From: Candidatus Kerfeldbacteria bacterium CG08_land_8_20_14_0_20_40_16
GTDB lineage: Bacteria; Patescibacteriota; Patescibacteriia; UM-FILTER-42-10
Assembly (NCBI GenBank): GCA_002774635.1
Contig: PEXU01000011.1
Coordinates: 1 to 32,836, forward strand
Direction: 5' to 3'
Length of the DNA: 32,836 nt
Shown here in pieces: positions 3,841 to 32,699 of this stretch; the stretch's first letter is position 1; each line of letters starts with the position of its first letter. The position numbers and the translations under genes are program-made. The notes under the pieces were generated by a model, which worked only from the letters and a program-made list of their open reading frames with translations, made no database searches and was not told the DNA's origin.

Positions 3841-6800
3841 ATGGTTATGAAAAATTTAAAAAAGACCATCCCGATTTTTGTTTCTCTAGTAGCTATTTTG
3901 CTACTTTTTTTATTTATCAATTATGCTCGAGAAACTCTGGCCGGACAAACAAGAGATATGCAGTTTGGCTGGGGATCTGGATATAGTTATGACGATATTT
4001 ATCAGCTGTCAGTCCCTTCTAGTTATCAAGGATGTTTTGTAAAAATTTATGGAACTCAGTATTGCTACGATACAACTGATGGTTCCTCTGGCCGAGACGA
4101 ATCTTTGTTGGTATCGGTTAAGGGATGCCTCAATCGAACAGAATGTATTATTAGTGCTGATCCCGGAGAAGTAATGAATGTAGTATTCGATGAAACAGGA
4201 AATCAATACTGTGATCCCTCTTACTATAATTCCACAATGTGGGATTATGAAGTTAAGAAATATGGTTATTGCGGTGATGGTACTTGTGGTACCTCAGCGG
4301 ATCAAATAGGTACCTGTGTTAATGGCAAGATAGCAACAGAAGATTGCTCTAGCTGTCCAAGTGATTGTGGACAGTGTGAGCAGGAACAAAAGAGTGATGG
4401 TGAAAGCTGTTCTAGTGATTCCGAGTGTCTTTCGGGATTCTGCGTACACGGTATCTGCCGTTACGAAATGTATTACGGTGATGATGGCTATTGTGACCGA
4501 GGATCAAAATTTGAATATGAGGAGCCGTGCATGTTTAATGACTGCCAGAATACTTCAGAGTGCCAGGCGGCGGAAGGAAAAACCTGCAGTGATGCAACAA
4601 ATTGCCCGGGAATGTATTGCGTGCAGGGTTATTGCCGCTTTGAACCAATTTATTGCGGAGATGACTATTGTGACGAAATAAATGGTGAAACCGCTTCCAG
4701 CTGTCCTGCGGATTGCGCCGAGCAGAAAAAGCCGGATGGCGCTGCCTGTTCTATTTGGACGGAATGCGAAGGCGGACATTGTGTTCACAGCGTCTGCCGC
4801 TCCAGCCGTACTTATTGTGGAGACCAGGCTTGTGATTCACAAGATGGAGAAACCTGTTCAGACTGTCCCGCTGATTGCAGGGAATGTGCTACCGGTCCGG
4901 AATGCGGTAACGGCACCTGTGAGTCCGGAGAAACCTGCTCTAATTGTGCTCAGGACTGCGGTGTTTGTCCTGAAACTGAAGAAACGGAACCAGAAGAGGG
5001 AGAAGAAGAGATTTTGGATGAAACAAAACTGCCAGACTTAAGGGTGTTCATCTACGGAACGGTAGATGTTTTTCCCGGTACGGATAAGATTGGCACTCTT
5101 ATCCTAGAAAATGAGGGCGAAGGTACCGCTAAAAACGTAAAAGTAAAAATCTATGTTGACCGAGAAAATTTATTAACGATTACGCCAACGGAAATTGAGG
5201 TTGGGGATATTGCCGCTGGTCAGGAGAAAAATGAAGCGATCACTATTTCCGCTGATGGCCAGATGTTTGGAACGGCTCATCTAATGATAAAAGTTGACGG
5301 AAATTTTGGCACCAAAGTGGAGTTTGTCAGAGCGAGAGTGATGCCATTTTTGGAGCTTAAGGTACCGGAGTCAATAATACTCCAGCCCCAGGAAACCAAA
5401 GAGTTTGCCGCTTCCGTTACTAATCAATCTAATGAACGTATCCTAGTAAAATCACTAACTCTAGAAAGCAGCGACACTTCCGTGGTATCAATTGATACTG
5501 GGCAAACCATGGAAGTAAAAGGCCAGGGCGAGGGGATTGAACCAGAAGAGTCTTTTAGCACCGAAAGTGATAATTTATTAGAATCCCTCTACCCTAAACC
5601 TAAAATCAAAGCGGAAGGTATTGGCGAAACCATGCTGTATTTCCGGTTAAATTACGGGTTTCCGGAAAACACCGCCAAAGAAGGATCTACTCTCGTAGTG
5701 CCGGTAGAAATAAAAGTGGCTGATTCGCTTGGAGGAAAAAAAGCCTCCGTTGATTTTGAAGTGATTCCTTCGGCAATCATGATTGAGAGGTTAGAGGCAA
5801 GAGAAATTAAATTAAAAATAGAAAACACAGGAAGCGAATACATTAAAAACGGTTCCATTACCATTAAGGAGGATTCGGACAAGTTTGACGCTACAGAAAA
5901 AGCTGAATTCGGCTTTATTGCTCCTGGTGATGAAAGAACAGCCACGATAGATGTAATGGGAAACAATGTCAATCTGGAAGGGGATTTTATTGATACTTTA
6001 GAGTTCAACGGTAAATACTATACCATTGATGATCGAGAATATTACTTCTCAAAAAATATCCAGATGACTCTGGTTAAAGAAAGGCAAGGATGTGACGCCG
6101 GGGACCAGGACTGTGTTCAAGCCATGGCTTGCCTGATGGAGTTATCAAATAAAATGAGCTGTTCTCTAGAAGTAGCCGATGTCATTCCTTATTTTGACAA
6201 ACCAGTTGCAGCAGTACTAGCGACATCAGATTTTTGTGAGATTAAAAATAGAGCTGCTTCTGGTGATAGTATTGGTGCCGCAATCAGTACAATCTTCACT
6301 TCCGCTGATTTAGCTGATAATGGCGCTGATGCCGTGCCCGGGGCGGGCAATCTTGTCTCAGTAATCTCAGACATAGTAGAAGGCGCAGCAGATTGTACCG
6401 AGGGTTATGTTTATGATATTGTAAATGAATACTGTGCTAGCGGGAAGGGTTACACCGGTTGTGCTGAAGAAATATTTAATACCTTTGCAGAGTTTACCGG
6501 TCAATCTGATAAAACTGAAGCTACTAAAAGAGTAATGGTGATAATGGTAGGCTCACCTGTTTTTGTGGAAATGCTTGATGATGCCAATAATGAACTTACT
6601 CCTCTAGAGGGAATCTCGATATATCAAAAAGAAGATCTTAAGTTAGTGTTCATTGAAGATCCTGATCAACTTAAGAATGGTTATAATCTTAAACTGTCCA
6701 GTTATAGTAATGGCCAGTATAGTATTCATGTCGCTTTAATTGATAGTGGAACGGTCATAGAGAAAAAAGTGATCGGTGACCAATCCATCAATAAAGATGA

Positions 6801-7673: not shown

Positions 7674-8720
7674 ATGAAAGAACAGTTAGAACAATTAAAA
7701 AACAAGGTGCTAGAAGAGATCAAGAAAATTCAGGATCCCAAACTTTTAGGCAATCTGGAAAAGGAATATCTGGGCCGCAAAGGCAAGCTGACCAAAATTT
7801 TGCGCAAAATCAAGGATGTTTCGGCGGAGTTGCGGCCAGTCGTAGGCAAGCTGGCCAACGAAATTAAAAAGGATGTGTCAGCGGCTTTTCAAGAAGCGGA
7901 AATAAAACTTAAAACTCGCTACCAAAACAGTTCGGAATTTTTCGATCCCACTTTGCCCGGCATTGTTCCTCCTTCCGGCCATCTTCACCCTATCACCCAA
8001 ATGCTGGAAAGAATCTGGGAGGTCTTTCGTTCCATGAACTACGATTTGGTTTTGGGTCCGGAAATCGAAAATGATTACTACAACTTCCAGGCCTTAAATG
8101 TGCCGCCGGACCATCCGGCCCGCGATATGCATGATACTTTTTATTTGAAAGGAGCTAGAGGAGTAAAAAGGGAAAGAGGAAAATATGGAGATTTGCTGCT
8201 TAGAACCCATACCTCATCCATCTCCCAGGTGCGAACGATGGAAAAAAGAAAGCCGCCGATCCGGATTATGGCCACGGGAAAATGCTACCGCCGCGATGAT
8301 GATATTTCCCATACACCCATGTTCCATCAGTTTGACGGCATTGCCATTGACCATAACATCACTTTTGCCGATTTGAAGGGAACTTTGCACTACGCCATGC
8401 GGGAACTTTTGGAAGAAGAGGTAAAAGTCCGCTTCCGAATTTCCTATTTTCCCTTTGTCGAGCCGGGCGCCGAATTTGACGTTACCTGCACTATTTGTGG
8501 CGGCCGGGGCTGCCCGACCTGCAAAGGAACGGGCTGGTTAGAAATGGGCGGCTGCGGCATAATTCATCCCAATGTGATGAAGGCGGCCAAATATGATTCC
8601 AAAAAATGGAAAGGATTTGCCTTTGGTTTTGGAGTAGAGCGGCCGGCTATGGTTAAGCACCGCATTTCCGATATCCGCGCACTTTTTGAGAATGATTTAA
8701 GATTTTTGAATCAATTTTAG
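7674..8720 (+). CDS. pheS: Phenylalanine-tRNA ligase alpha subunit
   Basis: 348 residues. Class II synthetase catalytic subunit; pairs with PheT as an alpha2-beta2 enzyme that charges tRNA-Phe. The N-terminal 90 residues form the tRNA-binding coiled coil (EYLGRKGKLTKILR). Motif 2 is visible as RTHTSSISQVRTM...RIMATGKCYRRD, the amino-acid pocket includes FHQFDGIAID, and motif 3 is GFGVERPAMVKH. A four-Cys insertion, CTICGGRGCPTCKGTGW, sits before motif 3 and probably binds zinc; it is found in a subset of bacterial PheS. I chose ATG 7674 because upstream in-frame sequence lies in the preceding gene and does not resemble PheS; GAGGAGG at 7653-7659 serves as Shine-Dalgarno. Slightly longer than the 327-residue E. 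coli protein. Confidence 0.95.
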   Translation: MKEQLEQLKNKVLEEIKKIQDPKLLGNLEKEYLGRKGKLTKILRKIKDVSAELRPVVGKLANEIKKDVSAAFQEAEIKLKTRYQNSSEFFDPTLPGIVPPSGHLHPITQMLERIWEVFRSMNYDLVLGPEIENDYYNFQALNVPPDHPARDMHDTFYLKGARGVKRERGKYGDLLLRTHTSSISQVRTMEKRKPPIRIMATGKCYRRDDDISHTPMFHQFDGIAIDHNITFADLKGTLHYAMRELLEEEVKVRFRISYFPFVEPGAEFDVTCTICGGRGCPTCKGTGWLEMGGCGIIHPNVMKAAKYDSKKWKGFAFGFGVERPAMVKHRISDIRALFENDLRFLNQF

Positions 8721-8722
8721 AA

Positions 8723-8820
8723 ATGTCATTTCAAGCGGAGACAAGTTTAGCTTGTCGGAGTCGAGAAATCTAAGATCTCTCCATTCCGTCCCGCGTCCGC
8801 GGGATTCCAGTCGAGATGAC
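8723..8820. repeat. Composite palindromic intergenic repeat (ATGTCAT...ATGAC ends)
   Basis: Starts ATGTCAT (8723-8729) and ends ATGAC (8816-8820), so the ends are inverted. Inside are GACAAG/CTTGTC (8740-8745 with 8751-8756) and TCCCGCG/CGCGGGA (8789-8795 with 8798-8804, 2-base loop). It fills almost the whole pheS-pheT gap and even supplies a misleading ATG at 8816 in the pheT frame. A related element lies at 30373-30477. Non-autonomous; resembles REP/MITE-type repeats. Confidence 0.75.
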
Positions 8821-8833
8821 CAATAACAAAAAA

Positions 8834-11248
8834 ATGAAAGTATCTCTAAATTGGCTAAAAGACTACGTCCCAATTGAACTAACTCCAGAAAAACTGGCAG
8901 AAGAGTTGACTATGCGCTCGGTAGAGGTTAATGCGATTGAAAAAGCCAATCCGGGGCTCGACAAGGTGATTGTCGGCAAGGTGCTTAAAGTGGTTAAACA
9001 TCCCAATGCCGATAAACTGAATTTGGTTACGGTTGACCTTGGCAAGAAAAAACTGGAAGTAGTCTGCGGTGGATCCAATATTACCGCCCAATCGGTCGGA
9101 TGGAAAGTACCAGTCGCCTTAGTCGGATCCGAACTGCCCGGCGGACTAAAAATCACCAAGGCCAACATTCGCGGCGTAAATTCCCACGGCATGCTTTGCT
9201 CCGCCGAAGAACTAGGCTTGCCGAAACAGGGCGAGCGGGAAATTATGGTTTTGGATTCCCCAGCCCGGATAGGGGAAAAAGTAGGCGAAACGCCGGCGTT
9301 TCGCCTACAGAATCTGCAAGACACCGTTTTGGATTTAGACGTATTGGCCAATCGCCCAGATTTATTCAGCCATCTGGGAGTGGCCCGCGAGATCGCCGCT
9401 ATCACTAAAAAGCCGTTTAGATTTAAAAATAAAGAAACAAAAGAAGAGCCTCGCCATCAAAAAGAGGTGAAAATTTTAGTAAAAGACAAAAAGCTATGCC
9501 CGCGCTATTCCGCCCTGGTGTTAAGCGGTATCAAAATCGGGCCTTCGCCCCAGTGGCTGGCGAGCCGGCTGGAAGCGGTGGGAATTCGCTCCCTAAACAA
9601 CGTGGTTGACCTGACTAACTATATTATGATGGACCAGGGCCAGCCCCTGCATGCCTTTGATTACGATAAGATAATGGGAAAAACCATGGTGGTTCGTGGC
9701 GCTAAGCAAGGTGAGCGGGTCAAAACACTGGATGGTAAGACTTGGCAGTTAAACAAAGGGATGGCCATTATTGAGGATGGGAAGAGATTGATTGATCTGG
9801 CCGGAATTATGGGCGGTGCTAACAGCGAGGTGAACGCTAATACCAAGACCATCATTCTGCAAGCCGCGGTATTTGATTCCACTAATATCCGTCTAACTTC
9901 TCGCGCTTTAGGCCATCGGACCGAGGCGGTAGCGCGCTACGAAAAAGCGGTTGATTTAACCCAAACGCTGGCAGTCTTGGTTTATTCCTATTCCTTGTTG
10001 AAAAAACTGATTCCTTCGGTGGTTCTAGAGCAGGTGATCGATATCGGGGACTGGAAACTTGTGAGCAAGAGGATTAAGTTTGAATTTTCGGCCGTTGATC
10101 AGTTAATAGGCCTTAAAATTCCGCCCGCTGAAATTACTGCAATTCTGGAGTCACTGGGGCTCAAAGCGGTGAAAAAGGGAAAAACGGAAGTTACTTGGGA
10201 AATTCCTTCTTTTCGGCCCGATCTTAATATTCCGGAAGATTTAATCGAAGAAGTGGGCCGGGTCTGGGGCTACAATAGGATTCCCGAAACGGTTCCCTTA
10301 GGAGAATTAAAACCTCCTCTAAAACCGCCTTTACTTACCTTAAGCAGCAGAATCAAGCAGATACTAAATGGCAAAGGTTTTCAGGAAGTTTACAACTATT
10401 CTTTTATTAACAAAGATTTATTTACTAAAGTGGGTTTGGCGCCGGCCCAGCATGTTGAAATTGAAAATCCGCTTTCCCAAGATCAGCAGTATCTGAGAAC
10501 CGAACATATTTCCGGCTTGCTCCAGAACGTGATCCATAACTTTAAAAACTACGATCAGATCAACCTGTTCGAGCTTTCTGAAGTCTATTTTCCTGAAGGC
10601 TCTAAACCTCCCCGCGAAGCCAGCCTATTAAGCGGAGTAATGGCCGCGCCGGAAGGAAAACAAGATACCTTCTTTCTATTGAAGGGGGTTGTCAGAGAGC
10701 TTCTGAACGAACTGAATGTGGAAGCGGAAAGTGATTTGTTGCAGAAAGAAGGAAAAGGGGAATGCCCTTATTGGAAAATGTATGATCAGAAAATATCCTT
10801 GAAATTCATTTCCAAAAGAAAAATCATTGCCACCTTGGCCAGTGTCTCTAGGAGGGTATTAGAAAAATTTGACCTTGATCGGGAAGTTTGCTTTTTTATC
10901 GTTTTTATCGAAGAGCTTTTGAAAACCAGAACAGCGGTTAAAACCTTTGAGGCCTTGCCCCGCTTTCCCAGCGTCATGCTGGATTTGGCCTTCATTATTG
11001 ATCAGAAAATTTTGTACCGCGACCTAAAAACACTAATTGAAAAAACGGGCAAACCTTTGCTTAGAAACGTGGAGCTGTTTGACGTTTATACTGGAAAGCA
11101 GATGGCGCCCCATAAAAAAAGCATGGCGGTACATTTGCAGTATCGTTCGGAAGAGCGCACTCTCTCTTTAGAAGAGGCTCAGGCAGTCCATCTAAAAATA
11201 ATCAAAGCTTTAGAAACTAACTTTAAGGCTCAAATCAGAGCCAAATAA
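8834..11248 (+). CDS. pheT: Phenylalanine-tRNA ligase beta subunit
   Basis: 804 residues, the usual bacterial PheT length. Domains in order: N-terminal [16 protein letters not shown]-like tRNA-binding OB fold (about 40-150, [10 protein letters not shown] and VCGG), B3/B4 editing region (about 205-385, with [11 protein letters not shown] and [12 protein letters not shown]), B5 (about 400-475, [24 protein letters not shown]), inactive catalytic-like core, and C-terminal FDX-ACB anticodon-binding domain (about 710-804, [13 protein letters not shown]). I chose ATG 8834; the ATG at 8816 lies inside the intergenic repeat and adds MTNNKK. A perfect 28-bp palindrome (9281-9308) falls inside the frame and encodes residues 150-158, just where the protein is about five residues longer than typical PheT between the OB fold and DTVLDLD. 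Confidence 0.95.
9281..9308. repeat. 28-bp perfect palindrome inside pheT (GTAGGCG...CGCCTAC family, copy 1)
   Basis: A 14-base arm beginning GTAGGCGAAACGCC is followed at once by its exact reverse complement ending CGCCTAC. The copies at 18816-18843 and 31492-31519 have the same length and nearly the same outer seven bases but different, self-complementary centres. Here it is read in frame as VGETPAFRL within PheT. Confidence 0.85.
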
Positions 11249-23767: not shown

Positions 23768-24694
23768 ATGGCCAAAGTCAATTTCAAAAACCGAGACATT
23801 ATATCAATTAAGGATTTTTCCAAAGAAGAAATTCTGCATGTTTTAAATACGGCCAAAAGATTCAAAGAAAAGACCCATCCCAATCTGTTAAAGGGAAAAA
23901 TATTAGCCAGTTTGTTTTTTGAGCCGTCCACCCGCACCCGTTTTTCGTTCGAATCCGCTATGGAACGTTTAGGAGGCTCGGTAATTACCCTAGCGGAAGC
24001 CAAAGTCAGTTCTTCGGCCAAAGGCGAATCCTTGTCCGATTCCATTCGGATTGTCGAAAAATACTGTGATGCGATAGTAATGCGTCATTCTTTAGAAGGT
24101 TCGGCCCGCTTAGCGGCAGAAGTATCCAACAATCCGGTAATCAACGGTGGGGATGGTGCCAATCAGCATCCCACTCAAACTTTTCTGGATTTATTTTCCA
24201 TTTTGGAAACTCAAAAAAAGTTGAATTGCTTAAACATTGCTTTGGTGGGAGATTTAAAATATGGTCGGACGGTCCATTCTTTGGCTTACGCTCTCTCTCT
24301 TTTTGGCTGCCGTCTCTATCTTGTCTCTCCTAAATCGCTTTGTATGCCCGACTATGTGCTTACCGAGCTGAAAGCGAACAAGACTCACTATTCGGAACAT
24401 CTTAGGCCAGAGAGAATTATGAACAAAATTGATGTCTTTTATGCTACCCGCATTCAAAAAGAGCGTTTTGCCGATGCCATTGAGTACGAGAAAGTGAAAG
24501 ATGTTTACATTATTAATAAATCGCTTTTAGTGAACGTTAAGAAAAATTTTCGCATTCTTCATCCCTTGCCGCGGGTGAATGAAATTAATTATGAGGTGGA
24601 TGAAACGCCTTATGCCTATTATTTTCAACAGGCCTCCAATGGTTTATGGGTCAGGCAAGCTTTATTAGCCTTAGTTTTAGGAGGAAAAATATGA
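23768..24694 (+). CDS. pyrB: Aspartate carbamoyltransferase catalytic subunit
   Basis: 308 residues, matching E. coli PyrB in length. Condenses carbamoyl phosphate and aspartate. Carbamoyl-phosphate loop EPSTRTRFSFE (STRTR 54-58), the SSSAKGES loop (normally SLxKGE), RHSLEGSARLAA, GDGANQHPTQTFLDL, GDLKYGRTVHSLAYAL and HPLPRVNEI. The pyrI ATG overlaps its TGA (ATGA) with a strong AGGAGG ahead, so holoenzyme subunits are made together. carAB, the source of carbamoyl phosphate, are not in the window. Confidence 0.95.
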   Translation: MAKVNFKNRDIISIKDFSKEEILHVLNTAKRFKEKTHPNLLKGKILASLFFEPSTRTRFSFESAMERLGGSVITLAEAKVSSSAKGESLSDSIRIVEKYCDAIVMRHSLEGSARLAAEVSNNPVINGGDGANQHPTQTFLDLFSILETQKKLNCLNIALVGDLKYGRTVHSLAYALSLFGCRLYLVSPKSLCMPDYVLTELKANKTHYSEHLRPERIMNKIDVFYATRIQKERFADAIEYEKVKDVYIINKSLLVNVKKNFRILHPLPRVNEINYEVDETPYAYYFQQASNGLWVRQALLALVLGGKI

Positions 24695-25143
24695 GAGTAT
24701 TTAAGGTTTATGCCATAAAAAATGGAACGGTAATTGATCACATCCCTCAAGGGAAAGGATTAAAAATCATTCACCTTTTGGGTCTGGATAAAAGCTGTAA
24801 TAATATCGTTACCCTGGGAATGGGTTTTGACAGCAAACGCTATAGCAAGAAGGATATCGTTAAAATAGAAAAAAGAGAATTGACTGCGGAAGAAGTAAAT
24901 AAAATTGCGGTTATTGCCCAAACTGCCACGCTGAACATCATCCGCAACTATAAAATAGTTAAAAAACACCAGGTTGCCATTCCTGAGATTTTAGAAAAAA
25001 TAATTCGGTGCCCGAATCCTAATTGTGTAACCAACCACGAACCAGGAAAAACAAAATTTTTGGTAATTAAGAAAAAGCCAATCCAGCTACATTGTTATTT
25101 TTGTGAAAGAACATTTGCGATAGAAGAAATTACTATTCAGTAA
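24691..25143 (+). CDS. pyrI: Aspartate carbamoyltransferase regulatory subunit
   Basis: 150 residues. N-terminal allosteric (CTP/ATP) domain starting RVFKVYAIKNGTVIDHIPQG, with GLDKSCNNIVTLGMGFDSKR; C-terminal zinc domain with Cys107, Cys112, Cys135 and Cys138 (CPNPNC...CYFC), the same CX4C-X22-CX2C spacing as the E. coli protein, which docks on PyrB. I chose ATG 24691 because of AGGAGG at 24679-24684 and the canonical start; an upstream in-frame ATG lies inside pyrB. Presence of PyrI implies feedback-regulated ATCase. Confidence 0.95.
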   Translation: MRVFKVYAIKNGTVIDHIPQGKGLKIIHLLGLDKSCNNIVTLGMGFDSKRYSKKDIVKIEKRELTAEEVNKIAVIAQTATLNIIRNYKIVKKHQVAIPEILEKIIRCPNPNCVTNHEPGKTKFLVIKKKPIQLHCYFCERTFAIEEITIQ

Positions 25144-25286
25144 ACCCCGTTAGAAAGTTAAATTAAAAGTCCAATATTCTAACCAGGCCAATAAAGTTTC
25201 ATCTAAAAATAAAAATTTCTAACTGGGTAAAGGAAGGTCTGTTACAATGCCTATTTACAAAGAACGAAGCTTTCTAACGGGGTAAA
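25144..25286 (+). promoter_or_regulatory. Repeated TTCTAAC motifs and long inverted repeat around the pyrD promoter
   Basis: ACCCCGTTAGAAAG (25144-25157, directly after the pyrI stop) is the exact reverse complement of CTTTCTAACGGGGT (25270-25283, just before pyrD). A third copy in the forward direction, TTTCTAACTGGGTAAA (25216-25231), differs from TTTCTAACGGGGTAAA (25271-25286) by one base, and TTCTAAC occurs again at 25177-25183. One forward copy covers the -35 position and the other lies between the start site and the ATG, as in a repressor operator pair; alternatively the long stem in pyrI read-through RNA would hide the pyrD ribosome site. Confidence 0.6.
25240..25248 (+). promoter_or_regulatory. 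Extended -10 promoter (TGT TACAAT) of pyrDKCE
   Basis: TG at 25240-25241 and TACAAT at 25243-25248, with no -35 consensus. Start expected near 25255, 34 bases before pyrD. The flanking TTTCTAAC motifs straddle it. Confidence 0.55.
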
Positions 25287-25288
25287 TT

Positions 25289-26203
25289 ATGGTGGATATT
25301 ACAGCTAACATTGCGGGATTGAAGCTAAAAAATCCTACTATTTTAGCTTCCGGAATTCTTGGGGTGACCAAGGATTCTTTAAAATACGCAGTCCAAAACG
25401 GAGCGGGCGCTTGCATCATCAAATCAATCAGCCGGGAAGAAAGAAAAGGACATAACGCTCCTAATATGCATGCCATTGAAGGCGGCTTTATGAACGCGGT
25501 AGGTTATTCTAATCCCGGTTTGGAAAAAGCCAAAGAGGAATTTCAAAATTTAAAAGAGGTGGGGGCGCCAGTGATTGCCAGCATCATTGGTCAGGATGCC
25601 GATGAGTTTGGCTATATGGCCGAAAAATTTTTATCCGATGAGTTTGCCGCGGTTGAAGCGGTTTTATCTTGCCCGCATACTCCCGGCTACGGCACTTTGG
25701 CCGGTCAGGGAACTCCCCAGGCTACCGAGGAAATTACCAAAAAAGTGCGCTCCAAAACAAAGCTCCCGCTTTTTATTAAAATATCGCCCGAAAGTCAACC
25801 GATTGGTGAAATTGCCAGAGCCGCCGAAGCGGCCGGCGCCGATGCCATCACAGCAGTGAATACTATGGGTCCTGGTATCCATTTGGATATCTATGCCCGA
25901 AAACCCGTACTCCATTTCGGCAGAGGGGGAGTGTCTGGCCCGGCCCTGCGTCCGATTGCTGTCCGTTGCATCTCCGATATCTACCAGTCGGTCAAAATCC
26001 CGATTATCGGCTGCGGAGGAGTTACGACCGGCCGAGATGCCATTGAAATGTTTATGGTTGGAGCTTCTACGGTTCAAATTGGAACCGGGGTTTATTATCG
26101 CGGTCCGGAAGTTTTTCAACTGGTCTGTGATGAAATAAAGGCGTTTATGGAAGAAGAAGGATTCAAAGACATTAAAGAAATGGTGGGGGTTGCTAATAAT
26201 TAA
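25289..26203 (+). CDS. pyrD: Dihydroorotate dehydrogenase, class 1B catalytic subunit
   Basis: 304 residues. FMN TIM barrel oxidising dihydroorotate to orotate. NIAGLKLKNPTILASGILG start, KSISREERKGHNAPN, catalytic Cys128 in LSCPHTPGYGTLAGQGTP, PLFIKISPE, ITAVNTMGPG, GGVSGPALRPIAVR and GCGGVTTGRDAIEMFMVGAS (FMN phosphate). A Cys rather than Ser base and the pyrK partner downstream mark it as the NAD-linked class 1B. GGGG at 25279-25282 serves as a modest Shine-Dalgarno. Confidence 0.94.
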   Translation: MVDITANIAGLKLKNPTILASGILGVTKDSLKYAVQNGAGACIIKSISREERKGHNAPNMHAIEGGFMNAVGYSNPGLEKAKEEFQNLKEVGAPVIASIIGQDADEFGYMAEKFLSDEFAAVEAVLSCPHTPGYGTLAGQGTPQATEEITKKVRSKTKLPLFIKISPESQPIGEIARAAEAAGADAITAVNTMGPGIHLDIYARKPVLHFGRGGVSGPALRPIAVRCISDIYQSVKIPIIGCGGVTTGRDAIEMFMVGASTVQIGTGVYYRGPEVFQLVCDEIKAFMEEEGFKDIKEMVGVANN

Positions 26204-26270
26204 TTTTTAATTTACAATTTTCAATTAATTACTAGATATTGAAAATTGAAAATTCAATGAAAATTGATAA

Positions 26271-27095
26271 ATGAAAATTGAAAATTATTTGGACAAACTA
26301 GATAAGCCCATCATGCTAAAAATAGCGGATCGGGTAAAAGAAACCAGCAACGTGGATACTTTTTACTTTAATTATTGCCTGAATTCTCAGCCCGGACAGT
26401 TTGTGATGCTTTGGCTGCCGGGAATCAACGAGAAACCGTTTAGTATTGCCTATGATACGGGCGAACTATTTGGATTAGCGATTGCCCAAGTTGGTGCTTT
26501 CACGGAAGAATTATTCCAAAAGAAAGTGGGCGAGCGAGTAGGAATTAGAGGCCCCTACGGCCGGCCTTTCTGGAAGGAAAAAGACGCTAAAAATGTGGTA
26601 ATGGTCGGCGGAGGTTACGGCGTGGCTCCCTTGGCCACTTTGGCGGAAGAACTGACTACTAAAGGAGTGAAAGTCCATTTTATTAACGGTGCCCGTTCTA
26701 AAGGTTTGCTTTTATTTACAGATCGTCTCAAACAGCTGGATGTTAAACTATATACTACTACTAATGATGGATCCTATGGTGAAAAAGGGATCGTGACTGA
26801 TTCGTTTAAAAAAATATTAAAGCAGGAAAAAATTGATTTAGTATACTGCTGTGGAAAGGAACAGATGGAAAAGGCGATGTTTGATTTATGCGAGGAGGCG
26901 GGAGTGAATGCCCAAATCAGCGTGGAGCGGTATATGAAATGCGGAATCGGAATCTGCGGTGCCTGCTCGGTTGACGGGACTGGAGCGCCTACCTGTCAAA
27001 AAGGTCCGGTGCTGGAAAGCGCGACCTTAAGGAAGATCACCGAATTCGGAAAATATCACCGCGGCGGTTCTGGAAAAAAGGAGTATTTTAGATGA
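26271..27095 (+). CDS. pyrK: Dihydroorotate dehydrogenase electron-transfer subunit (FAD, 2Fe-2S)
   Basis: 274 residues. Passes electrons from PyrD to NAD. N-terminal FAD barrel with GQFVMLWLPGINEKPFSIAY; FNR-type NAD domain with VGGGYGVAPLATLA and CCGKEQM; C-terminal 2Fe-2S cluster Cys224, 229, 232 and 242 (KCGIGICGACSVDGTGAPTC). The 67 bases before it are repeated AAAATTGA/TCAATTTT filler with small inverted repeats and no clear Shine-Dalgarno, so the exact start (26271) is the first plausible ATG. Its stop overlaps pyrC (ATGA). Confidence 0.93.
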   Translation: MKIENYLDKLDKPIMLKIADRVKETSNVDTFYFNYCLNSQPGQFVMLWLPGINEKPFSIAYDTGELFGLAIAQVGAFTEELFQKKVGERVGIRGPYGRPFWKEKDAKNVVMVGGGYGVAPLATLAEELTTKGVKVHFINGARSKGLLLFTDRLKQLDVKLYTTTNDGSYGEKGIVTDSFKKILKQEKIDLVYCCGKEQMEKAMFDLCEEAGVNAQISVERYMKCGIGICGACSVDGTGAPTCQKGPVLESATLRKITEFGKYHRGGSGKKEYFR

Positions 27096-28387
27096 GCTTA
27101 ACACTAAAGGATTGCATTTTTGATAATCAAATAACGGATGTTTTAATTAAAGCAGGAATAATCGCCAAAATCGGGAAACACCGGGATGTCGGTAAGGTGA
27201 TCGATTGCCAGGGACTAGTTTTGTTGCCCGGGTTAATTGATGGCCACGTCCATTTTCGGACGCCCGGTTTTGAATACAAAGAGGATTGGCTGACCGGATC
27301 CCGCGCGGCCGCTAAGGGAGGAGTAACTGCCGTTCTAGATATGCCTAATACCAATCCGGCTACGGTTGATTATAAGGCGCTCGAGCAGAAACGGAAGCTG
27401 GCCCAAAAAAGCTTAGTCAACTTTGGGTTTCATTTTGGAGCTACTGGGGAAAATATCCCCCTGGCTAAAGAAATAACGGGAGTAGCTGGAATCAAAGTAT
27501 ACGTCGGCTCTTCTACTGGAGCGCTTCTGTTAAGTAATCCAGATGATTTAAAACAGCTATTTTCTAATACTAATCAGCTTTTCTTGGTACATGCTGAAGA
27601 CGAACAGTTTATTCAGGAGCAAGCAGAAAAATATAAGAATGAAACCAATCCTAAAATCCATACCAAAATCAGGGCACCCGAGGCGGCCGCGCGATCAGTA
27701 GCAATGCTTCTGGAATTAGCGGAACAGACTGGAGCCCGGATCCATTTTTGCCACGTCAGCACCGCAAAGGAACTGGAGTTAATCGCTAAAGCAAAGCAGA
27801 AAGGTTTATCCGTTACTTGCGAAGTAACTCCCCATCATCTTTTTCTGACCGAAGAAGAATACGACAAAAAAGGGAATTGGGTCAAAATGAACCCGCCTTT
27901 AAGATCAGAGGTAGACCGCCAAGCGCTTTGGCAGGGAATCAAAAATGGGGTAGTGGACACCATTGGCACGGATCATGCTCCTCATACCCGTAAGGAAAAA
28001 CAAAAAGATTATTGGCAGGCTCCTGCCGGCGTGCCAGGAGTAGAAACAATGCTGCCTTTACTACTGAATGTGGTTTCGCAAAGTAGGCTGGAACTGGAAC
28101 GATTAATTCAGCTGACCAGTACTAATCCTGCTCAGATATTCAAAATCCAAAACAAGGGAGAAATAAAAGAAGGTTTTGATGCTGATTTGGTACTAGTAGA
28201 TTTAAATGCGAGGAGTAGAGTAATCGAAAACGAATTAGAAACCAAATGCGGCTGGTCACCCTTTGTTGATTGGCAACTCACCGGCTGGCCCAGAAAAACA
28301 GTTGTTGGCGGCAATTTAATCTATGATGATCATATAATTTCTAATAATTTAACGGCAAAGGAGGTTCAATATTATGAGCGACTATAA
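27092..28387 (+). CDS. pyrC: Dihydroorotase (class I)
   Basis: 431 residues. Cyclises carbamoyl aspartate to dihydroorotate. Amidohydrolase metal ligands are in place: DGHVHFRTPG (His52, His54), Lys134 in GIKVYVGSS for the carboxylated lysine, His166 in VHAED, His220 in HFCHVST, Asp293 in GTDHAPH. DMPNTNPATV and KMNPPLRS are the substrate motifs. Length and motifs fit class I (the longer, ancestral form). Overlaps pyrK by four and pyrE by 14 bases. Pathway order is thus pyrB-I-D-K-C-E. Confidence 0.94.
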   Translation: MSLTLKDCIFDNQITDVLIKAGIIAKIGKHRDVGKVIDCQGLVLLPGLIDGHVHFRTPGFEYKEDWLTGSRAAAKGGVTAVLDMPNTNPATVDYKALEQKRKLAQKSLVNFGFHFGATGENIPLAKEITGVAGIKVYVGSSTGALLLSNPDDLKQLFSNTNQLFLVHAEDEQFIQEQAEKYKNETNPKIHTKIRAPEAAARSVAMLLELAEQTGARIHFCHVSTAKELELIAKAKQKGLSVTCEVTPHHLFLTEEEYDKKGNWVKMNPPLRSEVDRQALWQGIKNGVVDTIGTDHAPHTRKEKQKDYWQAPAGVPGVETMLPLLLNVVSQSRLELERLIQLTSTNPAQIFKIQNKGEIKEGFDADLVLVDLNARSRVIENELETKCGWSPFVDWQLTGWPRKTVVGGNLIYDDHIISNNLTAKEVQYYERL

Positions 28388-29048
28388 AAAAGAGTTTATT
28401 GACTTTTTAGTAAAGTCCGAAGCTCTAAAATTTGGCGAGTTTACCTTAAAAAGCGGCCGGAAGTCCCCCTACTTTTTCAGCACGGGCAACTTTAACACCG
28501 GTGCTTCAATCTATAAACTGGGCTATTTTTACGCTTCCAAGGTGGCGGAAGAAAAGATTGATTTTGACGTGATTTTTGGCCCGGCTTACAAAGGAATTCC
28601 GTTGGCAGTTTCAACCGCCATTGCTTTGGCGAAAGATTTTAACCGGGATAAAAGCTATCTTTTTGATCGCAAGGAAGTGAAGGATTACGCGGATAAAAGT
28701 GCCTTTGTCGGCTACGAACCAAAAGAAAAAGAAAAAGTGCTGCTAATTGATGACGTAATGACCACTGGAAAAACTAAAGAAGAGGCGATTGAAAAAATAA
28801 AAGCACAGTTCCCCAAAGTAGTTTTCAGCTGCCTGCTGATTGCTTTTAACCGCCAAGAAGTGGATGGGGAGGGCAATAACGCGATTGAGGAGTTTGAGCA
28901 GAAATTCAGTATTCCGGTTAAAGCAATTGTTACGGTAAAAGAAGTGATTGACTATCTGCACAACCAAGAAATTGAGGGGCGAGTATATCTGGACAATAAA
29001 ACAAAAAGCCGTTTGGAAGATTATTTAAAAAAGTATGGCGTATCATAA
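28374..29048 (+). CDS. pyrE: Orotate phosphoribosyltransferase
   Basis: 224 residues. Joins orotate and PRPP to give OMP. FTLKSGRKSPYFFSTGNFN start, FGPAYKGIPLAVSTAIAL, catalytic loop DRKEVKDYADKS, and PRPP-binding VLLIDDVMTTGKTKEEAI. The chain FNRQEVDGEGNNAIEEFEQK follows a pattern seen in the E. coli-type enzyme. Shine-Dalgarno AAAGGAGG at 28358-28365 inside pyrC. Overlaps the nudix gene by 14 bases. Confidence 0.94.
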   Translation: MSDYKKEFIDFLVKSEALKFGEFTLKSGRKSPYFFSTGNFNTGASIYKLGYFYASKVAEEKIDFDVIFGPAYKGIPLAVSTAIALAKDFNRDKSYLFDRKEVKDYADKSAFVGYEPKEKEKVLLIDDVMTTGKTKEEAIEKIKAQFPKVVFSCLLIAFNRQEVDGEGNNAIEEFEQKFSIPVKAIVTVKEVIDYLHNQEIEGRVYLDNKTKSRLEDYLKKYGVS

Positions 29049-29478
29049 AAACAAAAAACATCCAATACCGGTTGTCGGTGCGTATGTCTTTAATAAACAG
29101 GGAAAAATTCTATTGATTAAGTCCAAGAAATACAAGGATAAATACGGCGGACCAGGTGGCCATATTGAATTTGGCGAGACTATAGAGCAGGCGCTCAAAC
29201 GTGAATTGTTTGAAGAAACTGGTTTATTAGTATCTAATCCTAAGCTTTTTGATATTAAAGAGTTAATTAATTCTAAAGAATATAAAAAAAGCGGCCATTT
29301 CGTTTCTTTTAGATTGTATGGCTGTGCTTTTTCTGATAAGGTCAAGCTGGATCCAAAAGAGGCTTATGAATATGTTTGGGTTTATCCCAAAAAAGCTCTG
29401 AAAATGAACGTAATGGAACCCACCAAGCAGTCAATTAAAAAATTAATTAAGCTAAAAAAAGATGGAGAACTATCTTAA
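29035..29478 (+). CDS. Nudix hydrolase inside the pyr operon
   Basis: 147 residues. Complete Nudix box: GGHIEFGETIEQALKRELFE followed by ETGL (G-x5-E-x7-RE-x2-EE-x-G pattern with E-L-F-E-E). Starts PVVGAYVFNKQGKILLIKSK, the common beta-strand lead-in. Nudix enzymes cleave X-linked nucleoside diphosphates; specificity cannot be read. Its ATG sits in the end of pyrE and pyrF follows after 40 bases, so a nucleotide-sanitising or PRPP/UDP-related job is possible but inferred. No other domain. Confidence 0.87.
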   Translation: MAYHKNKKHPIPVVGAYVFNKQGKILLIKSKKYKDKYGGPGGHIEFGETIEQALKRELFEETGLLVSNPKLFDIKELINSKEYKKSGHFVSFRLYGCAFSDKVKLDPKEAYEYVWVYPKKALKMNVMEPTKQSIKKLIKLKKDGELS

Positions 29479-29518
29479 GGAATACGGAGCAAATAAATAA
29501 TCATTTATTTTAAATTTT

Positions 29519-30340
29519 ATGAGCAATTTAGAACAAAGACTAAAGCTTACTTACCAAGAACGGGCAGTTTTAGCAAAAAATCCAGTTTCTTCCCGCTTGC
29601 TGAAATTGATTGGGGAAAAAGAAACCAATCTCTGCTTAGCGGTGGACGAGCCGGAAGCGGAACTGGTATTAGCGCTGGCCGATAAAGTAGGTCCGGAAAT
29701 CTGCGTGTTAAAAACTCATATCGATATTATTGAAGAATTCAAGCCGTCCTTAATTAGGGAGTTAAAAAGCCTTGCAGAAAAACATCAGTTTTTGATATTT
29801 GAAGACCGCAAGTTTGCCGATATCGGCAATACCGTAAAAATGCAGTATGAGAAAGGGGTTTATAAAATTGTGGAATGGTCTGATTTAACCAATGCCCATG
29901 TTATTCCGGGCCCGGGCATTATTGAGGGACTCCAGGAAGTAGCCAAAGAGAAAGGATTAGAGCGGGGACTGATTCTACTAGCACAAATGAGTTCTAAGGA
30001 CAATTTAGCTACTGATGATTACACTAAAGCAGCGGTCAAAATGGCCGAAGAATATTCTGATTTTGTGGTCGGATTTATTGGTAACGGCGGTCAGGTGGAA
30101 GAATTAAAGAAACTATCGGATTTAGCCGATCCCAAGTTCAGTATTATGACTCCCGGTGTGAAGTTGGGCGGTGGCAAAGATACTCTCAAACAGCAGTACA
30201 CCACTCCAGCGGATGTAATCAAAGCAGGCTCCGACATTATCATTGTTGGAAGGGGAATCTATGGTGAGGATGATCCGCAAGAAGCCGCTAAAGAATATCG
30301 GCAAGCGGGATGGAAATCGTACCAAGAGAGATTAACATAA
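29519..30340 (+). CDS. pyrF: Orotidine 5'-phosphate decarboxylase, eukaryote (URA3)-like type
   Basis: 273 residues. Last step to UMP. Substrate strand NLCLAVDEPEAE, KTHIDIIEEF, and the catalytic DxKxxD as FEDRKFADIGNTVKMQYEKG (Asp96, Lys98, Asp101). WSDLTNAHVIPGPGIIEGL, FVVGFIGNGG, MTPGVKLGGGKD, QQYTTPADVIKAGSDIIIVG complete the barrel. The FEDRKFADIGNT form and the ITNAH/LTNAH-G-PGI stretch are those of yeast URA3 and human UMPS, not of the DLKFHDIPNT bacterial enzyme. Sits behind the nudix gene with a 40-base AT-rich gap. Confidence 0.93.
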   Translation: MSNLEQRLKLTYQERAVLAKNPVSSRLLKLIGEKETNLCLAVDEPEAELVLALADKVGPEICVLKTHIDIIEEFKPSLIRELKSLAEKHQFLIFEDRKFADIGNTVKMQYEKGVYKIVEWSDLTNAHVIPGPGIIEGLQEVAKEKGLERGLILLAQMSSKDNLATDDYTKAAVKMAEEYSDFVVGFIGNGGQVEELKKLSDLADPKFSIMTPGVKLGGGKDTLKQQYTTPADVIKAGSDIIIVGRGIYGEDDPQEAAKEYRQAGWKSYQERLT

Positions 30341-30524: not shown

Positions 30525-31460
30525 ATGAAACATCTATTAACGCTCAAAGATTATTCCAGGGGAGATATTGAAAAAATAATCAACCAGGCGATTGAAATTA
30601 AGGCTAATCCTAAAAAGTACGCTGATCTTTTACAGAACAAAACGTTGATCATGCTGTTTCAAAAAACATCCACGCGCACCAGATTAAGCTTTGAGGCGGG
30701 AATGACCCAACTGGGAGGCCACGCCATTTTTCTGGACAGCCGCACCAGTCAATTTGCCCTGACCGATTTCAAAGATGAAATCAAAGCCGTGATGCGCTTT
30801 GGCGATATTCTGATGTTCCGGGCCAGAAAATTTTCAGACGTGGAATTAACCGCTTCTTTAAACCAAATTCCGGTTATTGATGCCTGTTCCGAAAAATACC
30901 ATCCCTGCCAGGCCTTGGGTGATATTTTGACCATGGCCGAAAGCGCCGGTGGGCTTTCTAAAATCAAAAAAGTGGTTTGGTTAGGCATTGAAAATAACGT
31001 CAGCAATACCTTGAAACTGGCCTGCGCAAAACTGGGAATCAATGTTTATCTAGTAACTCCCAAGGCTCACGAAATCAGCGTTGATGAGGAATTAAATGCC
31101 ATGGCCGAGGAGACTGGCCATGTTCGCAAAACCTTGGATTTAGCCGCTGCCATGACTGATGCTGACTTTGTGCATACCGATACCTGGATGGATATGGAAT
31201 TTTTTGAAGAAGGAGAGGTAAAACCGGAATTCAAAGAGGAATACGAAGCAAGAATCAAAATGTTCCAGCCATATCAATTAAATGCCGCACTGGTAAATCA
31301 ATATGGCGGTAAAGCTAAAATAATGCACTGCATGCCCTGCCACGTCGGCTATGAAATAACCCGCGACGCCATTGACCATCCCAATTCCTTAATTTTCTCC
31401 CAAGCAGAAAATCGCCTCCATATTCAGAAGGCGATCATGTTGTATTTATTGAAAGGATAG
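30525..31460 (+). CDS. argF: Ornithine carbamoyltransferase-like protein, divergent substrate site
   Basis: 311 residues of the ATCase/OTCase fold. Carbamoyl-phosphate side is intact: STRTR (49-53), HPCQ (126-129; usually HPTQ), HCMP (268-271; usually HCLP). The amino-acid side departs from OTCase: the DxxxSMG ornithine loop reads DTWMDMEFF (219-227), and HCMPCHVGYEI replaces HCLPxHRGxEV. It might be OTCase, or use another amine such as putrescine or an acetylated ornithine. No arginine genes are nearby. Its last 50 coding bases before the end (31390-31439) recur at 32491-32540, and the final LLKG codons differ from the stranded copy, so the current end was supplied by the inserted segment. 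Confidence 0.8.
   Translation: MKHLLTLKDYSRGDIEKIINQAIEIKANPKKYADLLQNKTLIMLFQKTSTRTRLSFEAGMTQLGGHAIFLDSRTSQFALTDFKDEIKAVMRFGDILMFRARKFSDVELTASLNQIPVIDACSEKYHPCQALGDILTMAESAGGLSKIKKVVWLGIENNVSNTLKLACAKLGINVYLVTPKAHEISVDEELNAMAEETGHVRKTLDLAAAMTDADFVHTDTWMDMEFFEEGEVKPEFKEEYEARIKMFQPYQLNAALVNQYGGKAKIMHCMPCHVGYEITRDAIDHPNSLIFSQAENRLHIQKAIMLYLLKG
31390..31439 (+). repeat. 50-bp direct repeat, left copy (argF 3' end)
   Basis: Identical over all 50 bases to 32491-32540, exactly 1,101 bases apart. It encodes LIFSQAENRLHIQKAIM of ArgF. Similarity continues weakly on both sides (TTCC before; TATTTATT against TACTTATT after), as expected for two orthologous gene ends and not a fresh duplication. Confidence 0.9.
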
Positions 31461-31491
31461 AAAATCTTGATAACTTATTTACAACGTCAAC

Positions 31492-31519
31492 GTAGGCGCG
31501 ATTCGCGAATCGCGCCTAC
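31492..31519. repeat. 28-bp perfect palindrome (GTAGGCG...CGCCTAC family, copy 3)
   Basis: Arm GTAGGCGCGATTCG followed directly by its reverse complement CGAATCGCGCCTAC. No T tract follows. Lies 31 bases after the argF stop, inside the insertion. Confidence 0.85.
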
Positions 31520-31558
31520 AACTGATGGCCATTTTTAGCAAGTGTGTAGGAAATACCC

Positions 31559-31587
31559 TTGACAATTTCGTTATTTAGGTGTACTTT
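31559..31587 (+). promoter_or_regulatory. Promoter of the inserted gene
   Basis: Consensus -35 TTGACA (31559-31564), 17-base spacer, -10 TACTTT (31582-31587). The -10 keeps only T, A and final T of the consensus. Start near 31594, giving a leader of about 170 bases. Confidence 0.5.
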
Positions 31588-31645
31588 TAATTGCTCTTTC
31601 AAAATAAGTAAAACCATACCTCTATAGAATAGGTTCTAAAATAAA

Positions 31646-31742
31646 GCCGCAGCTTTAAGGGTGAAAAACAGTTGCACTTTTGAAGCTGCGGCCGGTTATG
31701 CCAAAGCTCGCCTACCCGAGACGATTTTCTCGGAAAAACGTC
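31646..31742 (+). promoter_or_regulatory. Structured leader with mutually exclusive hairpins
   Basis: GCCGCAGCTT (31646-31655) pairs with AAGCTGCGGC (31683-31692), a 10-bp stem. Further on, CCGAGA (31716-31721) can pair with TCTCGG (31728-31733), or GACGATTTT (31720-31728) with AAAAACGTC (31734-31742, one A-A mismatch). The two share bases and cannot form together. The Shine-Dalgarno AAAGGAGG starts ten bases later (31752). This looks like a switchable leader or a protein-binding site. Confidence 0.5.
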
Positions 31743-31766
31743 CTTATTACAAAAGGAGGAACAGCC

Positions 31767-32405
31767 ATGTCAAAAGAAAAACATGGAACAGCCTCATCCC
31801 TAAAAGAAGGACAACTTGCTGAATTCGTGGGAGCAGGAACTAAAGCTCTTATTCTGATCTCAGCCAAACTCGGCCCGAGACTCACTCATATTTGGGCCAA
31901 CAACGGAAAGGCAATGGAGCATGCTTTCTTGTCGGTTTTCGCATCACCGCCCCCTGGGTTTCTCAAGAGAATCACTGACAAACCCCTTATCCTGGACTCA
32001 ACCGACGGGTCGGAAATCCTACCGGATGCGGATGTATTCGCTCGCATCCTCTGTGATTTAGACATTGGTGAGGCAGGAGCGGCAACGGAAGCGACGCCCG
32101 TGCATGTGTATGAGATAGTGAATGATGCAACTTTTAAACAAATGTTTGGCTCCCTGAACGCAGACGTAGAGAAAGTCTGCCTTACCCAAGCCCAAATCAA
32201 GGGCTTTATAAAGAAACACCATCAGTGGCTGAGGCGCTACGACTGTTCAACATTATTTCTGTTTAAATCACATGGCAAGTTTTTCGTTGCCCAGGTGTGT
32301 ATAAGTTCTAGTGGTAAGCTCGCATTGGACGCCTACTGGTTAGAGAACTTGCACCTTTGGGACGCTGAGTGTTGTCATCGTTTGGTGGCTCCGCAACTGA
32401 ACTGA
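31767..32405 (+). CDS. Uncharacterised 212-residue cargo protein of the argF insertion
   Basis: 212 residues from ATG 31767, chosen for its strong AAAGGAGG (31752-31759); an upstream in-frame ATG at 31680 would run through the leader structure. No signal peptide or membrane helix. N-terminus GTASSLKEGQLAEFVGAGTK, a KLGPRLTHIW stretch, SPPPGFLKRI, an acidic middle (DADVFARILCDLDIGEAGAA), and a C-terminal part with WLRRYDCSTLFLFKSHGKFF, VAQVCISSSGKLALDAYW, ending HRLVAPQLN. I do not recognise the family; similar C-termini (HRxVxPQL) occur in hypothetical proteins of Parcubacteria as I recall, so it may belong to a dispersed cargo family. Codon use is richer in CTC, CGC and GCG than the AT-rich neighbours. 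Own promoter, leader and terminator make it a one-gene cassette. Confidence 0.75.
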   Translation: MSKEKHGTASSLKEGQLAEFVGAGTKALILISAKLGPRLTHIWANNGKAMEHAFLSVFASPPPGFLKRITDKPLILDSTDGSEILPDADVFARILCDLDIGEAGAATEATPVHVYEIVNDATFKQMFGSLNADVEKVCLTQAQIKGFIKKHHQWLRRYDCSTLFLFKSHGKFFVAQVCISSSGKLALDAYWLENLHLWDAECCHRLVAPQLN

Positions 32406-32433
32406 CCTTTAGGTTTTTTCTCTCAGGCAATTT

Positions 32434-32476
32434 ATCCCTTGGATTTCAAGCATTAAAGAATCTAAGGGATTTTTTT
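32434..32476 (+). terminator. Intrinsic terminator of the inserted gene
   Basis: ATCCCTT (32434-32440), G, GATT, a 14-base loop, AATC, T, AAGGGAT (32464-32470), then six more T. A good stem of 11 pairs with one mismatch, 28 bases after the stop codon. Confidence 0.8.
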
Positions 32477-32486
32477 AACAACCCAC

Positions 32487-32564
32487 TCCCTAATTTTCTC
32501 CCAAGCAGAAAATCGCCTCCATATTCAGAAGGCGATCATGCTCTACTTATTAGAAAAAATTTAA
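32487..32564 (+). pseudogene. Stranded 3' end of an argF gene
   Basis: Reads, in frame to a TAA at 32562-32564, SLIFSQAENRLHIQKAIMLY then LLEKI, the same as the ArgF end but finishing LLEKI instead of LLKG and using other codons for Leu and Tyr (CTC TAC against TTG TAT). Upstream similarity stops abruptly next to the terminator. Its stop codon touches the stop of the convergent gene at 32565, which suggests this is the original end of argF before the insertion. Confidence 0.8.
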
Positions 32565-32699
32565 CTATTTTACAGGATTAATCAGCAAATAAATAATTGC
32601 AAACCCGACCGCAATGGCGGATAAAACATACATCACGATGAGCAAATCCTGATGGGTGCCGGTTTTGGTTTTTTCTTTGACTTTTTCTTCTTTAGGCAT
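32565..32699 (-). CDS. 44-residue single-pass membrane microprotein
   Basis: Minus-strand ORF starting MPKEEKVKEKTKTGTHQDLL and continuing with a hydrophobic helix (IVMYVLSAIAVGFAIIYLLI, residues 21-40) and NPVK at the end. The Lys/Glu-rich cytoplasmic-looking head plus one helix is a common plan for small membrane proteins. A good promoter (32726-32754) lies just upstream on the same strand with a leader of about 20 bases and no Shine-Dalgarno. Its stop abuts the stranded argF end. Too short for many gene finders. Function unknown; the only minus-strand gene in the window. Confidence 0.65.
   Translation of the reverse strand: MPKEEKVKEKTKTGTHQDLLIVMYVLSAIAVGFAIIYLLINPVK

Follow-up and report, generated by a model that had tools for sequence, protein, structure and literature searches.

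A predicted orphan target gene of a diversity-generating retroelement between duplicated ends of argF in a Kerfeldbacteria genome

The argF end and the insert

The window analysed here is a stretch of 32,836 nucleotides (positions 1–32,836 of contig PEXU01000011.1, assembly GCA_002774635.1) from Candidatus Kerfeldbacteria bacterium CG08_land_8_20_14_0_20_40_16, whose small genome (G000) is 96.4% complete. It was compared with its congener Ca. Kerfeldbacteria CG_4_10_14_0_8_um_filter_42_10 (G001) and with a class-wide set of 381 genomes in which G000 is included. The argF gene (30525–31460, forward strand) encodes an ornithine carbamoyltransferase-type protein of 311 aa with Pfam OTCace_N and OTCace domains, and its 3′ end is the insertion site described below. 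Upstream of argF (23768–30340) lies a run of pyrimidine-type genes encoding a second carbamoyltransferase, a dihydroorotate dehydrogenase, an amidohydrolase, a phosphoribosyltransferase, a NUDIX protein and an OMP decarboxylase.

The end of argF is present twice on the forward strand, as two copies of an exact 50-bp sequence (31390–31439 and 32491–32540) that start 1,101 bases apart, enclose an insert of ~1.1 kb and form the perfect part of a 70-bp repeat with 91% identity. Copy 1, which contains an imperfect inverted repeat (31410–31436), terminates argF, and copy 2 reads on in frame through a stranded argF tail (MLYLLEKI and stop, 32541–32564, forward strand) to a stop codon at 32562–32564 that touches the stop (CTA, 32565–32567) of a convergent gene of 44 aa (32565–32699, reverse strand). 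In G001, argF (90% amino acid identity) has a single 3′ end, and this convergent gene comes immediately after it, which identifies the stranded tail as the original one, the convergent gene as the ancestral right neighbour of argF and the G001 locus as an empty site. Because this site is empty, the 1.1-kb segment is best read as a lineage-specific insertion or, less simply, as a segment lost in G001. Integrative elements that use gene 3′ ends are marked by a direct repeat matching the end of the gene and by an empty site in a relative, and the argF locus shows both. The sequence-only reading had described the exact repeat with its spacing, taken the downstream copy as the older end, proposed an insertion with reconstitution of the gene end and suggested looking for an empty argF locus in close relatives; the present analysis bears it out on each of these points. 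It had also regarded the upstream tail as foreign, in agreement with the last 21 bases of argF (31440–31460), which are element-derived and resemble G001 more than the stranded tail does, and with the palindrome of the sister species beside them.

On the forward strand of the insert, an element-borne argF 3′ untranslated region resembling that of G001 (31461–31490; local alignment, shuffle p = 0.007, a weak similarity) is followed by a perfect 28-bp palindrome (31492–31519, no strand assigned) and by a leader with a stable hairpin (31646–31692, 18-bp stem). The predicted leader fold is much more stable than those of shuffled sequences (z = −4.7), and the leader had no Rfam match. Next comes the gene for a protein of 212 aa (P0001; 31767–32405), preceded by a AAAAGGAGG ribosome-binding site, and behind it a hairpin-terminator (32431–32476) and 10 bases immediately left of copy 2 (32481–32490) that are argF-like and in frame, encode THS and differ from the host's codons, a feature that is weak on its own. 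The insert had been called a complete expression unit with a promoter and a switchable leader, a description that stands for the palindrome, the reading frame with its ribosome-binding site and the terminator, and for the leader as a stable fold, but not for the promoter, as a search of the insert for a consensus sigma-70 promoter found none. Promoter or leader modules apparently shared with two other genomes of the set (G035 and G008) were rejected, the matches being short, due to chance and located in regions of unrelated genes. As already noted from the sequence, the insert contains no integrase, the 1.1 kb holding only one gene; the single Phage_integrase match in G000, a tyrosine recombinase in a frame of 327 aa, lies on another contig.

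A family of retroelement targets and an orphan copy

The 212-aa protein matched no Pfam or NCBIfam family, a pattern search of GTDB contigs returned no close relatives, and relatives were encoded in 22 of the 381 class genomes, G000 counted. In several of them the last ~110 bp of the gene are repeated after it, the second copy being rich in Asn codons. A diversity-generating retroelement (DGR) comprises Avd, a reverse transcriptase (RT) and a template repeat (TR). A scan for template/variable pairs yielded six, from the loci L047 (G024:C32), L048 (two pairs), L057 (G215:C5), L058 and L059, in which 92 of the 102 differences fall at template adenines (12/13, 14/15, 16/16, 17/17, 19/20 and 14/21 per pair); their neighbours encode Avd (Pfam bAvd) and an RT. 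Because of this adenine pattern and the adjoining Avd and RT genes, we assign the family to DGR targets and 39 codons of the window gene (32283–32399, forward strand), which align ungapped with the L047 template repeat, to a variable region (VR). Homology to genes beside complete DGRs thus makes the window gene a DGR target. This identity accounts for its variable C-terminus, its conserved hairpin-terminator and its patchy distribution. The earlier suggestion of a gene family scattered in Patescibacteria holds for the distribution but missed that these genes are DGR targets.

The hairpin-terminator is conserved across the family, lying 30–110 bases behind the stop in nearly all targets whether or not an RT is linked to them; 5 of its 11 pairs show compensatory changes, and it differs from the hairpin that follows template repeats. 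The window copy carries this element behind its VR as its RT-linked relatives do. The element may serve as a terminator alone or as a retrohoming signal as well. The C-type lectin fold is common among DGR targets. The AlphaFold2 model of the 212-aa protein was poor (pLDDT 58) and gave no significant fold match, and the best hit in a search of solved structures was not significant (E = 0.11). At L219 (IMG/VR UViG 3300050821_006364), a target homolog (4292–4960) is found on a phage-like contig with large ORFs that by eye resemble terminase and portal genes, and no template repeat was seen in the part of this contig that was examined. At L047, a gene of the Y1 (IS200-like) transposase family (1505–2047) adjoins the DGR target and template repeat.

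The VR of the window copy shows a pattern suggestive of adenine-directed change when set against the L047 template, which is that of a relative and not its own. Nine of the 10 template-Asn codons are changed, with the C or T at the third base kept in 8 of the 10, and changes occur at 16 of 30 adenine sites versus 24 of 87 others (p = 0.014). Across eight VRs of the family, seven of them without a template repeat in the DNA examined, the template-Asn columns are more variable than the rest (2.50 versus 1.16 bits, p = 2.7e-6). Because the window copy's own template was not found, it is from its relatives that we infer past DGR mutagenesis of this copy itself.

The window copy is an orphan DGR target. 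Searches of G000 gave neither an RVT_1 match nor an RT of the DGR type, and the VR turned up only once in this genome, so that a template repeat was not found either. The VR cannot be rewritten in G000 unless an RT and a template repeat are unassembled or are later acquired. Among the 22 genomes that encode the target family, nine show no RT, some of these absences possibly reflecting assembly gaps, and 163 of the 381 class genomes have an RT.

Donor and route of the insert

The 28-bp palindrome has 13 copies in G001 and a single one, within the insert, in G000, and is present in 4 of the 381 class genomes in all; it is a lineage-specific REP-like element that is nearly absent elsewhere in the class. 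The element-side argF tail has 13 consecutive bases in common with G001, the stranded tail being less similar, and the element-side arms to the left and right, when joined through the 50-bp core, make up one donor-type argF end. Because the insert has its own argF end and a palindrome that is repeated in the sister species (13 copies) but has no other copy in G000, it probably came from a Kerfeldbacteria relative; G001 itself has no target gene.

We consider it likely, with a probability of about 0.6, that the insert represents a DGR target without RT, gained by horizontal transfer, that arrived as a small integrase-less circle and recombined with the argF end. The circle would have come from a related Kerfeldbacteria lineage and would have carried one contiguous donor argF 3′ end (32481–32540 joined to 31440–31490), followed by the palindrome, the leader, the target gene and the terminator. 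One crossover inside the 50 bp common to donor and host argF would then have inserted it, the two copies of the core marking the left and right junctions, so that argF was completed again by the tail of the element while that of the host became stranded. A circle with a single donor argF segment and a crossover in the shared 50 bp would explain both boundaries of the insert. Since the insert has no recombinase, this would have acted in trans, a tyrosine recombinase being slightly favoured over RecA. The protein is presumed to bind a ligand and may represent a single frozen variant, its C-terminal VR once rewritten by mutagenic retrohoming.

No circle or parent element was seen, and what counts against such a circle is that a duplicated gene end is missing from the flanks of 39 other DGR loci and of most RT-less targets. 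The sister-species type of the argF tail and palindrome and the lack of an integrase would also fit plain homologous recombination by RecA, for which 50 bp of identity may suffice, in competent cells that took up sister-species DNA already bearing the target behind argF, with no mobile element involved. A linear fragment, however, would hardly place a further, incomplete argF end of donor type after the terminator, G001 lacks the gene and the same footprint is seen at another gene in the genome G215 (below), so that we regard this route as rather doubtful. Less probable still is that the target came in with a larger integrative element or prophage, from which deletions then removed the integrase, the RT and other genes. 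The phage contig at L219 does encode a target homolog, and phages and mobile elements are known to carry DGRs (PMC10907252, PMC8144416), but the 1.1 kb contain no phage or integrase remnant and the 3.2-kb insert of G215 likewise has no integrase. The argF core was not found in viral contigs.

The repeat is short and sits 270 bases from the contig end, where strain variants might have been joined through it into an assembly chimera. This is very improbable, as both outer flanks are ancestral neighbours in G001 and a second argF end is needed on any path. A chimeric join via the 50-mer could at most alter the sequence after copy 2, and would leave untouched the reality of the additional, incomplete argF end that follows the terminator of the insert.

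A second insertion at gyrA and relation to known systems

G215 (L057) contains a complete DGR with the same type of target (target, TR, Avd and RT) within 3.2 kb, flanked by perfect 41-bp copies of the gyrA stop and terminator (5331–5371 and 8557–8597). In G405, of the same genus as G215, the site is empty, with the order gyrA, terminator, rpmF, and the 3.2-kb insert of G215 has no integrase. The argF and gyrA cores both hold an inverted repeat with arms of 10–12 bp and a spacer of 6–7 bp, a layout typical of tyrosine-recombinase sites and also of any terminator. Because the two insertions have left precise footprints with empty sites, the responsible recombinase becomes a testable question.

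One-gene cassettes with matching 3′-end duplications had been envisaged at other gene ends, an expectation that found no support in general, the window and G215 being the only cases among the family loci tested. Flanking direct repeats were absent at 39 of 40 DGR loci, G215 being the exception, and direct repeats around DGRs were rejected as a general rule. Imperfect duplications around other RT-less targets were likewise set aside, as none was convincing and the strong ones were tandem targets or terminators. For an orphan in G285, no empty site was found within its genus, where the flanks did not match. A role of argF as an insertion hot spot was rejected, as 80 argF loci were free of target homologs and showed no clear duplication of the tail.

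DGR targets have mostly been studied beside an RT. Remote targets, and targets in CPR bacteria that are unannotated or have no known domain, have been reported (PMC8144416), and horizontal movement of DGRs is known (PMC8144416, PMC10907252). The window copy resembles these CPR targets in that its 212-aa protein lacks a known domain, as reported for targets in CPR (PMC8144416), in that it is homologous to targets beside an RT, Avd and a template repeat and in that it has a VR at its 3′ end with apparently adenine-directed differences, but differs in that G000 yielded neither an RT nor a template repeat and the gene stands alone in an insert with a duplicated gene end. Integrative elements of the tyrosine-integrase type at gene 3′ ends and their integrase-less, att-flanked derivatives such as CIMEs share with it a repeat equal to the gene 3′ end, a restored gene and an empty site in a relative, whereas the present insert has no integrase or conjugation genes, a single cargo gene and no parent element that we could find. 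In Thiohalocapsa PB-PSB1, transposons and MITE-like arrays reshape DGR loci and leave incomplete loci and trans-targets (PMC10907252); the likeness is that parts of DGRs are relocated by mobile DNA, but this involves IS elements and MITE-like repeats there, whereas here a gene-end duplication is present and no transposase or terminal inverted repeats were seen. DGR targets as such are thus known, and a gene-end-flanked, integrase-less carrier form looks new, no such insertion of DGR targets having been found in the literature searched, the coverage of which is incomplete.

We tentatively raise the idea, which we hold to be improbable, that DGR targets, with or without an RT, travel in Patescibacteria as integrase-less circles carrying a host gene end, insert via a host recombinase and give frozen binding-protein variants to DGR-less cells. 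If the presence of targets in genomes without a detectable generator is general, DGRs would be factories whose products are common to several species as fixed variants.

At L053 (G351:C4), two target copies (6113–6622 and 8491–8922), 2.4 kb apart, have identical VRs and 3′ flanks. The pair reflects a recent duplication, no template repeat lying near this target, and a third, diverged target copy lies on another contig of G351.
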